A stretch of 50,547 bases of DNA from assembly GCA_028288485.1 (NCBI GenBank), contig JAQBNO010000011.1, positions 1 through 50,547 on the forward strand. Reading direction: 5' to 3'. Made by a program: the position numbers and the translations under genes. The stretch comes from Segetibacter sp. (GTDB taxonomy: Bacteria; Bacteroidota; Bacteroidia; Chitinophagales; Chitinophagaceae). How positions within the stretch are numbered: position 1 is the first letter of the stretch; every line of letters begins with the position of its first letter. The notes below the pieces were generated by a model that had not been told where the DNA came from, made no database searches, and was given only the letters and a program-made list of their open reading frames with translations. This document shows positions 28,380 to 34,374 of this stretch, in pieces.

Positions 28380-29423
28380 CTATTTGGCTTCCAACGTAAA
28401 GCCGATAGTTGTACCTATATCGGGCTTACTTCGTACATGAATTGTTTGTCCGTGCGCCTCAATTATATGTTTGCAAATGGCAAGACCTAAGCCTGTGCCC
28501 CCGATATCCCTGCTTCTGCCGGCGTCGGTGCGGTAGAACCGTTCAAAAATTCTCGGAAGATGCTCTTCCGAAATACCAATTCCGTCGTCACTTATTTCAA
28601 TAAGTACGTGTTTTCCATCGGTTTTATAAATGCTGGCAACAATATGACCATTTTCTTTTCCAAACTTTGTTGAGTTGCTTACAATATTAATGATCACCTG
28701 CTTGATCTTTTCTTTGTCACCAAAAACTACAACAGTTTGGTCGCATCCTTTTTTAATGGTGCATTTTATATTCCTTCCGGCAGTTTTTATTGAAAGCGAT
28801 TCATATACTTCCTTTATCAGGTCCTGGATAATAAAGTTTACTTTATATAATGGTTGTTCTCCACTTTCAAGTTTAGTTATTTCATCAAGATCACTTACCA
28901 AAGTAACCATCCGGTCTACATTACGTGCAGCATTTTCCAGGAATTTTTTGCTCACGTCCTTGTTTTCTATCGCTCCATCAAGCAATGTGTCTACATATCC
29001 CTGTATAGCAAAAATGGGCGTTTTAAACTCATGAGCAAGGTTTTGAAGAAATTCTTTTCGATACGCTTCGTTGCTCTTTAAAACTTCAATTTCCTTTTTT
29101 TGCTGGATAGCCCAATTTTCCACATCTTCCCTTACTTCGTCTATACTTTTTTGCGGTAATATATATTTGTAATAAGTCTCTTCACGCCGCGAAGCCTTTG
29201 TTTGGTAAATAAACTTATAAATAAGTTTGATCTTCCTGTAAATAAAGCGTTCAAGCGTAAATTTGATAAGAAGAAAGCTGCCGGAAAAAATAATTACAAA
29301 AACAATTAAAGCTACCCACCATTTAGGATGCATAATAAAATACCCGGCCGTAATAGGTACAGAAAGTATTGCTGCAGTATATAAGGAAAGTTGTTGGGGA
29401 CTGAGATTTTTAGTTGCGAGCAT
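28380..29423 (-). CDS. PhoR-type sensor histidine kinase
   Basis: 347 residues. Two N-terminal transmembrane helices (about 12-30 and 36-55) with almost no periplasmic loop, a linker, then the HisKA H-box FLQNLAHEFKTPIFAIQGY with phospho-acceptor H131, and an HATPase domain with N-box IINIVSNSTKFG, G1 DDGIGI, F-box IFERFYR and G2 GGTGLGLAI. The missing sensory loop suggests it senses within the membrane or through a partner. The response-regulator gene is just upstream (46 bases), so they form one operon and presumably one signalling pair. Resemblance to PhoR of Bacteroidota is good, but phosphate sensing is not demonstrated by the context. Confidence 0.93.
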   Translation of the reverse strand: MLATKNLSPQQLSLYTAAILSVPITAGYFIMHPKWWVALIVFVIIFSGSFLLIKFTLERFIYRKIKLIYKFIYQTKASRREETYYKYILPQKSIDEVREDVENWAIQQKKEIEVLKSNEAYRKEFLQNLAHEFKTPIFAIQGYVDTLLDGAIENKDVSKKFLENAARNVDRMVTLVSDLDEITKLESGEQPLYKVNFIIQDLIKEVYESLSIKTAGRNIKCTIKKGCDQTVVVFGDKEKIKQVIINIVSNSTKFGKENGHIVASIYKTDGKHVLIEISDDGIGISEEHLPRIFERFYRTDAGRSRDIGGTGLGLAICKHIIEAHGQTIHVRSKPDIGTTIGFTLEAK

Positions 29424-29469: not shown

Positions 29470-30153
29470 TTAATCCTGCATTTCAAATTTGTAGCCTACA
29501 CCTTTAACAGTGGTGATACAATCAATGCCCAGTTTTTGCCTGATCTTTCGAATATGAACATCTATGGTTCTGTCTCCTACAATAACCTCGGCTCCCCACA
29601 CCTGGCTTAGAATTTCATTCCGTAAAAATACCCGTCCTGGTTTCGACGCAAGAAGATACAGTAATTCAAATTCCTTTTTGGCAAGAATAACATCGTTGCC
29701 GTTTAAAATCACCATAAACTTTTCAGGGTCTATCACCATATTCCCCAGTTTTAGTGATTTACCGTCTTCTTTATTCAGCCGGCGGAATATCGCATTTACA
29801 CGACTCACTAATACTTTTGGGCTAATTGGTTTGTTAACATAATCATCAGCGCCTGTTTCCAAACCTTTGATTTGCGAAGATTCATCGTTAAGGGCAGTCA
29901 AAAAAATGATCAACGTATCATTGTATTCCTGTTGCGAACGCAGGTTTTTACACACTTCCACACCATTCATTTTAGGCATCATGATATCAAGAATAACAAG
30001 GTGCGGCTTAAAAAAGCTCACTTTTTCCAGTGCTTCAATTCCATTCTTTGCGGTTAATATTTCGTATCCTTCTTTTGAAAGGTTATAAGATATTATTTCA
30101 AGGATATCAAGTTCGTCATCAACAATCAAAACCTTTTTAGAATTCGGATCCAT
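29470..30153 (-). CDS. OmpR/PhoB-family response regulator
   Basis: 227 residues from the ATG at 30153 (a TTG at 30159 is also in frame). The receiver domain has VLIVDDELDIL, phospho-acceptor D56 in LVILDIMMPKMNG, T in FLTAL and the lysine in VNKPISPK. The C-terminal winged helix is of OmpR type (RNEILSQVWG, DRTIDVHIRKIRQKL, TVKGVGYKF). It is followed by its kinase gene. It is expected to bind direct-repeat operators as a phosphorylated dimer; no pho box was identified in this window. Confidence 0.94.
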   Translation of the reverse strand: MDPNSKKVLIVDDELDILEIISYNLSKEGYEILTAKNGIEALEKVSFFKPHLVILDIMMPKMNGVEVCKNLRSQQEYNDTLIIFLTALNDESSQIKGLETGADDYVNKPISPKVLVSRVNAIFRRLNKEDGKSLKLGNMVIDPEKFMVILNGNDVILAKKEFELLYLLASKPGRVFLRNEILSQVWGAEVIVGDRTIDVHIRKIRQKLGIDCITTVKGVGYKFEMQD

Positions 30154-30307
30154 TAACAAAATTTACACAAATTTAATTTTATGGGTTGCCGAAAACTGTA
30201 CTATGCCATTATTTAATTGTTAAGTCCTTGTTTATACTTTAGTTAAATGAAACCTTAAAGAAGAATAGCGGTCATATTAAAACCCGCTTTGGTAGTATTT
30301 TTGCTCA

Positions 30308-32479
30308 ATGATCTCAAGTATGATGAAATTTACATTGTTTTTATTTATTGTAGTACTCTCGGTTGATGGTTTAGCTCAATCTAAACCTGCTATTCCGCTT
30401 ATGAGAAGAATTTTTCATGAGAACATCGACAAGAACCAGAAATGGATAGACAAGCTGGATAGAAAGGAAGACAATAAATTTAATGCAAGTTCAGATACAG
30501 ATATCAATCTCCAGATTAACTATACATTATTTAAGAAAGTTGATGACCTTCAAACTGCGATAGAGTTAGATAGTTCATTGGATGCGAACGGAAAGATTAA
30601 ATTTCTCCGAGGTTTACATGAAGCTTTGGGTGCTTACGAAAGCGGTTACAGGCTAAAGGAATTAAAAGGAGAACAACTTCCTGAACTTATTAGTGCATTT
30701 CAGGACGCAATGAACCTTGAAAATAAAAAAGCCTCTATTGCACCTATCATAACTAACAACGATCCAGAAATCGGAGAAATTTTGGTAAAATGTTTTCCAT
30801 TTCTGAAAAATAAAGGGATTGGTGAAAGTAAGGAAGTGCTTCTCTTAAAAACTGCTGATAAGTATCCCCGCAAAATCCTACCCATCTTAAGGGCAAATCC
30901 TGATGCTACTTTTACCGACAGTTTATTAAGAATTGTTGCAAAAACACAACAGGAAGATATATATACGTATGCACAGTCTACTAATACCCCGTTAGGTAGA
31001 AAAATTCAGGAGATTGACGATCCCCTCATAAAAACAATTGCTCGTTTGGCAAATATGAAGGAAGGAAGGATGTATTTTCCATTTCTCGATAATTTATATA
31101 AGGGGAAGATAACAATTGATGAAATTGAAAAGAGCAGGGACGATATATATAGATATTATAAATTGCTCGTTACTACCCAGATTGATTATGCCGACCGGGT
31201 GCGCAGGCGTGATACCCCTATGGCGATGGAAGCTTTAACTAATATGTTAAGGCAAAAGGCAGTGGAAGAATTTGTAAATGTTATAAATGGTCTTCATGAC
31301 GAGCCTGACAATGTTCGGATGAAAAAAGTAGAGCCGTTAAGTGCGGAGGAGTTATACTATTTGTGTGTGATGGCAGAAACAGAGATATATACCAGCAGCT
31401 ACCTGAAGGTTTACGACCGTATTTTTCAAAGAATGAAAAATCCTAATAGCGACTCTCTTTTAATCAGTGTAAATTTTGATCATTTTAAGAAGTTTATTAA
31501 AATGGCGGCCAATTATAATACCCTTAATGATTTTGTAAAAAGGATGGATAAAGGGAACGCTGAAATTTTGATGGGTGCTTTCGCGGGAGGGTTAGAGCGT
31601 ACGGCAAGCCTCGAAGATGCAGTAGATGTTGCGGACAGTTATGCAAGTATTTCTGACAAACATCTGCGCCGGTTGATCCTTGAAACAGTTCAGTCAAACG
31701 TTACTCAACAAACAAGAGATGCTAATAAACGCGGTTTAGCTATTTACGACTTATTAAATAACATTTTCCAAAGCCTTGACTCATCCTCGCAAATTGATAT
31801 TTCTGCCAAATTCGGGATCCCTCCAATTTATACTGTTAAAAACAGCTCGTTGAAAAACGAGGAAGGTAAAATAATAGTGCAGCAATTTTTTTATGGCGAC
31901 AAAGATGGAGCTTATATTTTCAACCTGTTCAAAGCAGCCTACGCGAGTTCAGGATGGAAGGTCGTAACCAAGCCTGAATGGATTGAGGTAAGTTCAACAA
32001 AAGGAGTACCTGTAATAATTTATGCGAACAAACCCTTAGATGAAACCGAGGGTTTAGATGAAAAAGCCCAGGCGAGTTTAGAGGATTATCTTAACGAAAA
32101 GGATCTTAGCCCTACAATAGTTATTCACCGCGGACATAGTTACCACGTATCTTCTACCATTAAGCAACTATTTCCTACGTCAAAAGTAGTGTTGTTAGGT
32201 AGTTGTGGTGGTTACCAGAATATTAATAAAGTATTGTCTATTTGTCCTGAAGCGCATATTATAGCGAGTAAGCAAGTAGGTAGCGGAACCGTTAATGGTC
32301 CCATGATCATGAGCATAACCGAAACATTACGGCAGGGGAAAGACTTAAACTGGCCGCAGCTCTGGAAAAGTCTTGGAAAGCAACTGAAGAAGAATGATCT
32401 GTTCGAAGATTACGTTCCGCCCTATAAGAACCTTGGTGCACTTTTTATTATGGCTTACAATAGAGTAATGGAAGGGTAA
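30308..32479 (+). CDS. Secreted protein with candidate caspase-like (clan CD) C-terminal domain
   Basis: 723 residues. Signal peptide after a short N-terminal extension (start at ATG 30308, with alternative ATGs at 30320 and 30323; cleavage near GLAQ). Residues ~25-540 are almost all helical with no named repeat that I can fix by eye. From about 590 the character changes to alternating strands and helices: TIVIHRGHSYHV (H607, H610), a helix, then KVVLLGSCGGYQNI (C633), and IIASKQVGSGTVNGPMI. A strand ending in H-x-G-H-like and the next strand ending in S-C-G are the catalytic His/Cys positions of caspase, gingipain and CHAT folds. I infer a possible cysteine protease or a catalytically related scaffold in the periplasm. 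I do not recognise a named family. Confidence 0.8.
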   Translation: MISSMMKFTLFLFIVVLSVDGLAQSKPAIPLMRRIFHENIDKNQKWIDKLDRKEDNKFNASSDTDINLQINYTLFKKVDDLQTAIELDSSLDANGKIKFLRGLHEALGAYESGYRLKELKGEQLPELISAFQDAMNLENKKASIAPIITNNDPEIGEILVKCFPFLKNKGIGESKEVLLLKTADKYPRKILPILRANPDATFTDSLLRIVAKTQQEDIYTYAQSTNTPLGRKIQEIDDPLIKTIARLANMKEGRMYFPFLDNLYKGKITIDEIEKSRDDIYRYYKLLVTTQIDYADRVRRRDTPMAMEALTNMLRQKAVEEFVNVINGLHDEPDNVRMKKVEPLSAEELYYLCVMAETEIYTSSYLKVYDRIFQRMKNPNSDSLLISVNFDHFKKFIKMAANYNTLNDFVKRMDKGNAEILMGAFAGGLERTASLEDAVDVADSYASISDKHLRRLILETVQSNVTQQTRDANKRGLAIYDLLNNIFQSLDSSSQIDISAKFGIPPIYTVKNSSLKNEEGKIIVQQFFYGDKDGAYIFNLFKAAYASSGWKVVTKPEWIEVSSTKGVPVIIYANKPLDETEGLDEKAQASLEDYLNEKDLSPTIVIHRGHSYHVSSTIKQLFPTSKVVLLGSCGGYQNINKVLSICPEAHIIASKQVGSGTVNGPMIMSITETLRQGKDLNWPQLWKSLGKQLKKNDLFEDYVPPYKNLGALFIMAYNRVMEG

Positions 32480-32499: not shown

Positions 32500-32530
32500 A
32501 GAGCTGCTGAAAGGCAGCTCTCTTTATTTA
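32500..32530 (+). terminator. Terminator of the caspase-like gene
   Basis: AGAGCTGC (32500-32507), TGAAAG loop, GCAGCTCT (32514-32521), then CTTTATTT. Confidence 0.8.
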
Positions 32531-32565: not shown

Positions 32566-34374
32566 ATGTCCGATGCAGTAAAAAAAAAGGTTTTTGATTT
32601 TTCTTTATTAAAGAGGGTTTTTCAATTTGTACGTCCTTACAATAAATATTTAATCATAAGTATTGTACTTTCTGTTTTGTTGGCCGTATTTGCTCCTGTC
32701 AGGCCCTATTTAATTAATCTTACGGTCGACGTAGCTACTGGCAAGCCGGTTCACATGCCCGAATGGTTGCGACTCGCTTTGTTTAATTCCGATTTATCCG
32801 ATGCAACACGGTTTATTATTGCAGTCACCATTTTCCAGGTAGTGTTTATTTTTATCGAAACCACTTTCAGGTTTATCTTTTCTTTTCTTACTGCATGGTT
32901 AGGCCAGAGTGTAGTAAAAGATATCAGGGTTACCGTGTATAAAAAGGTGATGAGCTTAAATCTTTCCCAGTTCGATAAAACGCCCATAGGTACTTTAACA
33001 ACGCGAACGATTAATGATATCGAAAGTATCAACGATATTTTTGCCGATGGTTTGATCCCGATAATTTCCGATCTGTTATCCATCATATTTACACTTGCCA
33101 TTATGTTTGTCATGGATTGGAAGCTGACGCTTATAAGTCTTATACCATTCCCGGTTTTAATAATAGCAACCTACTATTTTAAAGAAAGTGTAAATCGCTC
33201 TTTCATGCGAGTTAGAAATGCGGTATCAGCATTAAACGCTTTTGTACAGGAGCATATAACAGGAATGCAAATCGTGCAGGCATTTGCTGCAGAAGATAGA
33301 GAGTTCGACAAGTTTAAGAAGATTAATAAGGAGCACCGCAATGCCAACATTCATGCAATTTTCGCTTACTCCATATTCTTTCCTGTTGTGGAAGTTGTGC
33401 TTGCGGTGAGCATGGGTTTGCTGGTTTGGTGGATTGCCGGTAATGCATTAGATGCAGGTTTGCTGGTTGCTTTCATTCTATACCTCAACCAGATCTTTCG
33501 CCCCCTGCGGGTGATTGCCGATAAATTTAACGTAATCCAAATGGGAATGGTAGCAAGCGAAAGGGTGTTTAAAGTGCTTGATAATCCCGATGTAATTACT
33601 TCTGAGGGAAACTACGCGCCAGCCACAATAACAGGAAAAGTTGAATTTAAAAACGTGTGGTTTGCTTATATAAAAGAGCAGTATGTTCTTAAAAACATTT
33701 CATTTACAGCGCAGCCTGGCGAAACGATCGCACTTGTTGGCCATACCGGTAGTGGAAAAACTTCTATCATTAGCCTCCTTAACCGTTTATATCATATTCA
33801 GAAAGGCGAAATTAAAATAGACGACGTTAAGGTTGACGATTATAAACTGGATGTTCTACGTAGCAGGATTGGCGTGGTTTTGCAGGACGTATTTCTTTTC
33901 TCAGGAAGTGTTCTTGAAAATATTACGCTTCGAAATACTTCCATATCAAAAGAACAGGTGATCGAAGCAGCTAAAATGATAGGCGTTCATGATTTTATCA
34001 TGAGTTTGCCAGGCGGTTACGATTATAACGTAATGGAAAGAGGAAGTACCTTAAGCCTCGGCCAGCGCCAGTTATTAAGTTTTATCCGCGCTCTGCTATA
34101 TAATCCTTCTATCCTTATCCTCGACGAAGCGACGTCTTCTATAGATACAGAAAGTGAAGCATTAATTCAGCAGGCGATAGACAAACTTATAGCCGGAAGA
34201 ACTTCGATTGTTATTGCCCACCGGTTGTCAACTATCCGAAAGGCAAGTAAGATAATTGTAATGGATAAGGGCGAACTTAAAGAAATAGGGTCACACACCG
34301 AACTCTTGGCAAAAGGAGGTTTTTATGCTAATTTGCATAACATGCAGTTAGAGAAAAAACATGTGTACGCCTAA
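32566..34374 (+). CDS. ABC exporter, fused membrane and ATPase domains
   Basis: 602 residues. Six transmembrane helices in the first ~320 residues, then an ATPase domain with Walker A GHTGSGKTS, a Q-loop (IGVVLQDVFLFSG), the signature TLSLGQRQ (canonical LSGGQ; the first glycine is L here, a variant seen in related exporters), Walker B SILILDEATSSID and the H-switch IVIAHRLST. The half-transporter dimerises in the inner membrane. Layout and length fit the MsbA/multidrug/lipid exporter group. The -7-like box TATTTTTG lies just before the ATG, and a terminator separates it from the gene upstream. Confidence 0.94.
   Translation: MSDAVKKKVFDFSLLKRVFQFVRPYNKYLIISIVLSVLLAVFAPVRPYLINLTVDVATGKPVHMPEWLRLALFNSDLSDATRFIIAVTIFQVVFIFIETTFRFIFSFLTAWLGQSVVKDIRVTVYKKVMSLNLSQFDKTPIGTLTTRTINDIESINDIFADGLIPIISDLLSIIFTLAIMFVMDWKLTLISLIPFPVLIIATYYFKESVNRSFMRVRNAVSALNAFVQEHITGMQIVQAFAAEDREFDKFKKINKEHRNANIHAIFAYSIFFPVVEVVLAVSMGLLVWWIAGNALDAGLLVAFILYLNQIFRPLRVIADKFNVIQMGMVASERVFKVLDNPDVITSEGNYAPATITGKVEFKNVWFAYIKEQYVLKNISFTAQPGETIALVGHTGSGKTSIISLLNRLYHIQKGEIKIDDVKVDDYKLDVLRSRIGVVLQDVFLFSGSVLENITLRNTSISKEQVIEAAKMIGVHDFIMSLPGGYDYNVMERGSTLSLGQRQLLSFIRALLYNPSILILDEATSSIDTESEALIQQAIDKLIAGRTSIVIAHRLSTIRKASKIIVMDKGELKEIGSHTELLAKGGFYANLHNMQLEKKHVYA

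Follow-up and report, generated by a model that had tools for sequence, protein, structure and literature searches.

A probable exported caspase/separase-type cysteine peptidase in a Segetibacter soil bacterium

In this study, we analysed a 50,547-nucleotide stretch of DNA from the soil bacterium Segetibacter sp. (assembly GCA_028288485.1, contig JAQBNO010000011.1, positions 1 to 50,547, forward strand; hereafter the window), and found that a 723-residue protein encoded in it is probably an exported cysteine peptidase of caspase or separase type. Predicted models give good support for a likeness to CHAT, separase and C11, both in fold and in site. Membership in any of these families is unsupported, since their sequence models fail to recognise the protein, and we therefore class it as an unnamed new family of clan CD kind. 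An exported protease of such a new family is the most likely interpretation, in which we infer the proteolysis itself, the substrate, the catalytic histidine and the regulation. The gene and its parts are as follows.

30308-32479, forward strand: coding sequence of a probably exported protein of 723 amino acids, with the ATG at 30308 and the stop codon ending at 32479, as read from the open reading frame
30308-30376, forward strand: probable signal peptide, residues 1-23, MISSMMKFTLFLFIVVLSVDGLAQ, judged by eye
30398-31852, forward strand: all-helical arm, residues 31-515, in the AlphaFold model
31853-32476, forward strand: C-terminal alpha/beta domain resembling caspase, CHAT and separase, residues 516-723, in the predicted models
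31898-31909, forward strand: D531-K-D533-G534, candidate S1-pocket acid or acids, between the first strand and the first helix
32126-32140, forward strand: histidine motif H607-R-G-H610-S611, with H610 as the favoured catalytic histidine, between predicted strand 604-608 and helix 611-619
32198-32212, forward strand: cysteine motif G631-S-C633-G634-G635
32294-32296, forward strand: N663, located after the strand that follows the cysteine strand
32500-32521, forward strand: probable terminator, a hairpin with a GC-rich stem of 8 bp and then a T-rich run

A sequence-only reading had described an open reading frame of 723 residues here, with a signal peptide, about 500 helical residues, the strands TIVIHRGHS (H607, H610) and KVVLLGSCGGY (C633) and a terminator of its own, and had suggested a possible caspase-like site in what may be a periplasmic or exported protease or a signalling protein. 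The frame and both motifs are present as described, MISSMMKFTLFLFIVVLSVDGLAQ looks by eye like a signal peptide, the expected length is helical in the AlphaFold model, and the GC-rich hairpin with its T-rich tail, read directly, is a probable terminator. The proposal of a protease is supported by the conserved His and Cys in a predicted caspase-like domain.

Conservation was assessed on 132 catalytic domains, the window included, which remained from 183 domain matches after a rough redundancy filter. H607, R608, G609, S611, G631, C633, G634, N663, W682, W686, Y702 and P705 were invariant (132/132). H610 was kept in 131 of the 132 domains, as was D531 (one Glu), and D533 in 129. The spacing was also fixed in every domain, with 23 residues from H610 to C633 and 30 from C633 to N663. 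In a separate count of 136 distinct rows, one of which is an incomplete contig lacking the site stretch, H607 and C633 were found in 135/135 and H610 in 134/135, and the residue before the Cys was Ser in 127, Gly in 6, Ala in 1 and Asp in 1. The joint conservation of H607, H610 and C633 across family members, on which the sequence-only reading depended, is far above chance. The near-complete retention of the expected Cys and His makes a protease, so far uncharacterised, the probable identity of the protein. A full-length alignment of 78 proteins gave the same core invariants, plus N327.

The predicted structure places H610 and C633 where clan CD peptidases carry their catalytic pair. The full-length AlphaFold model, with 78 sequences aligned, reached a mean predicted local distance difference test (pLDDT) score of 93.7 and a predicted template modelling (pTM) score of 0.82, and is helical at 31-515 and alpha/beta beyond. 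The model of the domain (132 sequences) had a pLDDT of 93.9 and a pTM of 0.91. It starts with strand 522-528, helix 534-544, strands 550-554, 558-563 and 569-574 and helix 583-597. Then come strand 604-608, H610, helix 611-619, strand 627-630 and C633, followed by helix 635-645, strand 650-654 and further helices. Thus, H610 and C633 follow successive strands on the predicted models, as had been claimed, and a glycine (G609) adjoins the His while a small residue precedes the Cys. H610 and C633 would form the catalytic dyad.

The clan CD core is described as four parallel strands in the order 2-1-3-4 with three helices, the His lying at the C-terminal end of core strand 3 and the Cys at that of core strand 4 (PMC4357240). 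In the C11/C80 form, further strands at the sheet edge precede the His strand (PMC4357240, PMC4850288), and the succession of elements along the family's predicted chain matches this layout. Along the chain, the predicted elements come in an order that fits a putative clan CD core; the domain superposes on CHAT, separase and C11, but also on GTPases. In the structural comparison of the domain, CHAT and separase outscored every GTPase listed. Gingipains, caspases and legumain were not among the structural neighbours listed, an absence that does not exclude them.

The interval of 23 residues between His and Cys is, to our knowledge, the shortest in clan CD, and it agrees with the short interval noted in the sequence-only reading. 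The nearest values are those of separase, with 26 in the human enzyme (H2003/C2029, with G2002 before the His; PMC12609080) and 27 for the pair C2110-H2083 in a review section on securin and separase (PMC7863939). Separase (C50, PF03568) differs in that no Pfam C50 match was found here and in that the new family is bacterial and probably exported. CHAT, as in SAVED-CHAT and the TPR-CHAT of Craspase (PF12770), differs in that the Pfam CHAT model has no match here and in its spacing of 42 (TPR-CHAT H585/C627; PMC9729208). The C11 peptidases (clostripain, PmC11, iotapain) have no Pfam match here either. The spacing is 46 in PmC11 (His133/Cys179), which also carries Asp177 two residues before the catalytic Cys (PMC4850288), whereas this position is G631 in 132/132 members. 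In addition, the extra helical part is C-terminal in C11 and N-terminal in the new family. Gingipains (C25) and caspases or metacaspases (C14) share the clan logic, with no Pfam match to either here. Craspase works in the cytoplasm, whereas the new family is probably exported.

Searches with sequence families did not assign the protein. Pfam scans gave nothing above cut-off, the best weak match (E 0.0028) being to unrelated families, and NCBIfam scans of the protein family gave no match above cut-off. None of CHAT PF12770, C50 PF03568, C11 PF03415, C25 and C14 was among the Pfam matches of the window protein up to E 10. PF03568 and PF12770 were also absent from the Pfam families listed (25 of 26) for 48 domains, and from those of nine further proteins. 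The window genome had 0 matches to C50 (PF03568) at E <= 0.01 and 0 to C11 (PF03415); elsewhere in it, C25 and C14 had 2 and 1 matches. Searches of Protein Data Bank sequences, run with the protein by itself and with two profiles, gave 0 matches, and 24 pattern matches in viral contigs included no relative. Literature searches for the family, or for bacterial relatives of its fold, showed no paper concerning it among those listed, in a library that leaves out most subscription journals.

Several results weigh against a caspase/separase-type peptidase. The resemblance to CHAT, separase and C11 sought by structure prediction was found; however, Foldseek placed GTPases first for the domain (best E 8.9e-4, template modelling score 0.39, root-mean-square deviation (rmsd) 14), and its whole-chain search gave no match at E <= 1e-3. 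With VIA-align, the C11 and Craspase rows tied with GTPases for the domain (8.6 and below), and separase tied with them for the whole chain. Profile-profile comparison with C14, C25 and CHAT, the families named in the sequence-only reading, was not significant (P 0.03 to 0.34). CHAT gave P 0.034 over 26 columns with the Cys in register, C25 gave 0.34, C14 gave 0.085 with 3/20 rows empty or in the wrong frame, and C11 gave 0.22 on an alignment of 2 rows only. This negative is weak, because the four comparison sets were flawed or unchecked (no row-by-row check was made for CHAT and C25). EF-hand models weakly matched single members at DxDG (E 0.013, below cut-off), so D531/D533 might bind metal instead of P1. 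One 931-residue paralogue (L105) reads HRGYS, with Tyr in place of H610, yet keeps the cysteine. Finally, the response regulator gene that adjoins the protease gene is missing from most of the deeper relatives displayed; the Pho link is therefore a lineage feature, not proof of function.

Among the invariants, R608, S611, N663, W682, W686 and Y702 fit no clan CD signature known to us, which would suit a caspase-fold domain other than a protease, such as a Cys-dependent transferase or hydrolase, or a scaffold whose reaction is lost or altered. The Tyr at H610 in one member points the same way, and prokaryotic pseudo-caspases with Tyr/Ser replacing His/Cys have been described (PMC6426788). The retention of the Cys in all 132 domains and of H610 in all except one indicates that site loss is not the rule, and we consider a non-protease unlikely. 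The same Tyr, in a member that retains C633, argues against a zinc or iron site, within a hydrolase or a sensor, made of H607-x-x-H610 and C633. H607 is kept as strictly as C633, and a Cys together with HxxH is a plausible ligand set, but on the predicted models H607 lies within the strand and H610 beyond it, so the two may not point the same way. Such a metal site appears highly improbable. The GTPases at the top of the Foldseek list raise another three-layer alpha/beta fold with GTPase-like order, in which His and Cys came to lie near strand ends by convergence. GTPases carry the consensus patterns GxxxxGK[ST] and [NT]KxD, and these occur in 0/132 and 5/132 members. The domain GTPase rows in Foldseek superpose at an rmsd of 5-18 Å, and their scores in the structural comparison fall below those of CHAT and separase. 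We regard this fold as very unlikely.

On the preferred reading of an exported peptidase, H610 would activate C633, which would attack the peptide bond. Strict P1 specificity is typical of the cysteine endopeptidases of clan CD. In gingipain R (Asp163) and MALT1 (Asp365), a helix 1 Asp binds P1 Arg, and in separase Glu917, just after strand 1, does so (PMC4626109). D531, with D533, would line S1 and make it prefer Arg or Lys as the P1 residue, the role that Asp163 has in gingipain R. The position of D531/D533 between strand 1 and helix 1 leads to this prediction of Arg/Lys at P1, which by analogy has about an even chance of being right. Separase has a further P1 acid, Asp1082 on helix 4 in C. 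elegans (PMC4626109), for which the family shows no obvious counterpart; the invariant N663 falls in that region.

The helical arm would dock a specific substrate, periplasmic or outside, in the way that separase uses its HEAT and TPR-like parts. Residues 301-515 of the arm nearly match the catalytic domain in conservation (median identity to the window 0.54 vs 0.57). Two candidates in the arm were rejected. N327/H330 was discarded as a second site, H330 being lost in the 1000-residue paralogues displayed, and a second, degenerate protease domain, as claimed for separase, was at chance level in a sensitive scan of 78 proteins (best E 0.24). By eye, most of 13 family N-termini inspected have a signal-peptide-like start. 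The N-termini of L030 and L039 are unlike those of other members, probably because the script took the start Met too early.

A more specific picture is possible but doubtful. It would make the protein the founder of a new clan CD family, an exported single-chain separase-like protease that grips its substrate with the helical arm, cuts one or a few specific envelope proteins after a basic residue and is controlled by the PhoB/PhoR-like system in Chitinophagaceae. If this were true, the regulated proteases separase and CHAT would have a counterpart in the periplasm. If the protein cuts, it would represent a new clan CD family that links CHAT, separase and C11 structurally, and offer a simple system for studying how a single substrate is chosen by a helical arm. 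In any case, a gene carried by nearly all members of a large family of environmental bacteria has no Pfam or NCBIfam model and yet an intact-looking protease site, and the locus gives a first handle on what an exported protease does next to a PhoB/PhoR-like pair in Bacteroidota.

The PhoR/PhoB-type pair and the ABC exporter described in the sequence-only reading were found beside the gene, all below NCBIfam equivalog cut-offs.

29470-30159, reverse strand: PhoB-like response regulator, the divergent neighbour (PF00072 and PF00486; best NCBIfam match PhoB)
28380-29423, reverse strand: PhoR/PnpS-like histidine kinase (PF00512 and PF02518)
32566-34374, forward strand: MsbA-like ABC exporter, the next gene
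30207-30223, forward strand: conserved element CATTATNNNATTGTTAA ([CTG]ATTATNNNATTGTTAA) in the intergenic region between the divergent genes, which probably belongs with the regulator gene

Neighbourhoods were compared in 96 stretches (the window, 80 relatives and 15 further stretches). Homologues of the response regulator were found in 76/96 and of the kinase in 70/96, and of the ABC exporter in only 9/96. The regulator was upstream and divergent in 73/96, a count that left out stretches carrying the gene on the minus strand and in which several contigs end before the regulator position; the same arrangement was seen in L114. Expression of the protease gene may be tied to this pair. Homologues of DUF47 (28/96), a phosphate transporter (25/96) and an epimerase (25/96) typically lie behind the kinase, and a metallo-beta-lactamase-fold gene (40/96) typically follows the protease gene. 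These names, and that of the TolB propeller below, come from one example locus, L037. Another frequent downstream neighbour (38/96 loci; L037:7988-11413 and 37 more) encodes a protein of about 1140 residues with a weak TolB-propeller match, and a Pfam scan of the L037 example gave no match.

The intergenic element was present within 2 mismatches in 68/73 regions. In 12 aligned regions its distance was constant relative to the regulator gene but not relative to the protease gene. Its reverse strand reads TTAACA-N5-ATAATG, which we take to be reminiscent of an 11-bp-spaced PhoP/PhoB-type box. We rejected the element as a regulon marker, as it has a single exact match in the whole genome. This single copy and the fixed distance suggest that it is probably the regulator gene's own operator, and it is weak evidence for co-regulation of the protease gene.

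Relatives were drawn from the best 80 of 127 stretches encoding one, plus loci from further genome searches. The closest named relatives are Segetibacter, at 72% identity (L003). In the order-level search, 131/298 genomes matched at E <= 0.01, of which three gave weak matches (G050, G474 and G573, E 0.003-0.009; not counted as members), and by hand count of the listing 83/85 genomes of the window's own family matched. The relatives search matched 41/59 genomes, with 35/36 from the same family (hand count). In a phylum sample, 15/395 genomes matched, 14 of them from the own family; the fifteenth, outside Chitinophagales (G162, E 0.0015), was rejected as spurious, since reading in three forward frames gave a short frame with stops.

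The window genome (6.4 Mb, 220 contigs) has a second copy, a paralogue with 55% identity (L002; G000:C173:40940-43090, reverse strand), with the same catalytic motifs and different neighbours. Deeper Chitinophagales families carry a paralogue of 930-1080 residues with extra N-terminal sequence. In three loci (L103, L104, L105) a gene for about 1000 residues lies directly upstream of one for 700, and in L106 and L108 the member of about 1000 residues stands alone. In the tree, nine 1000-residue rows make up one side of a branch (100/97).

Outside Bacteroidota, 4/72,556 plasmid records matched, all from Azospirillum (L258, L259, L260, L261). These proteins, of 591-738 residues and annotated as hypothetical, are encoded on large plasmids. 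The two that were aligned keep DDPDG, HRGHSYH, GSCGG, N663, both tryptophans, Y702, P705 and YTSS of the arm, and one of them has a signal-peptide-like start by eye. Genes for ethanolamine ammonia-lyase and DUF1194 were observed near 3/4 of the Azospirillum relatives.
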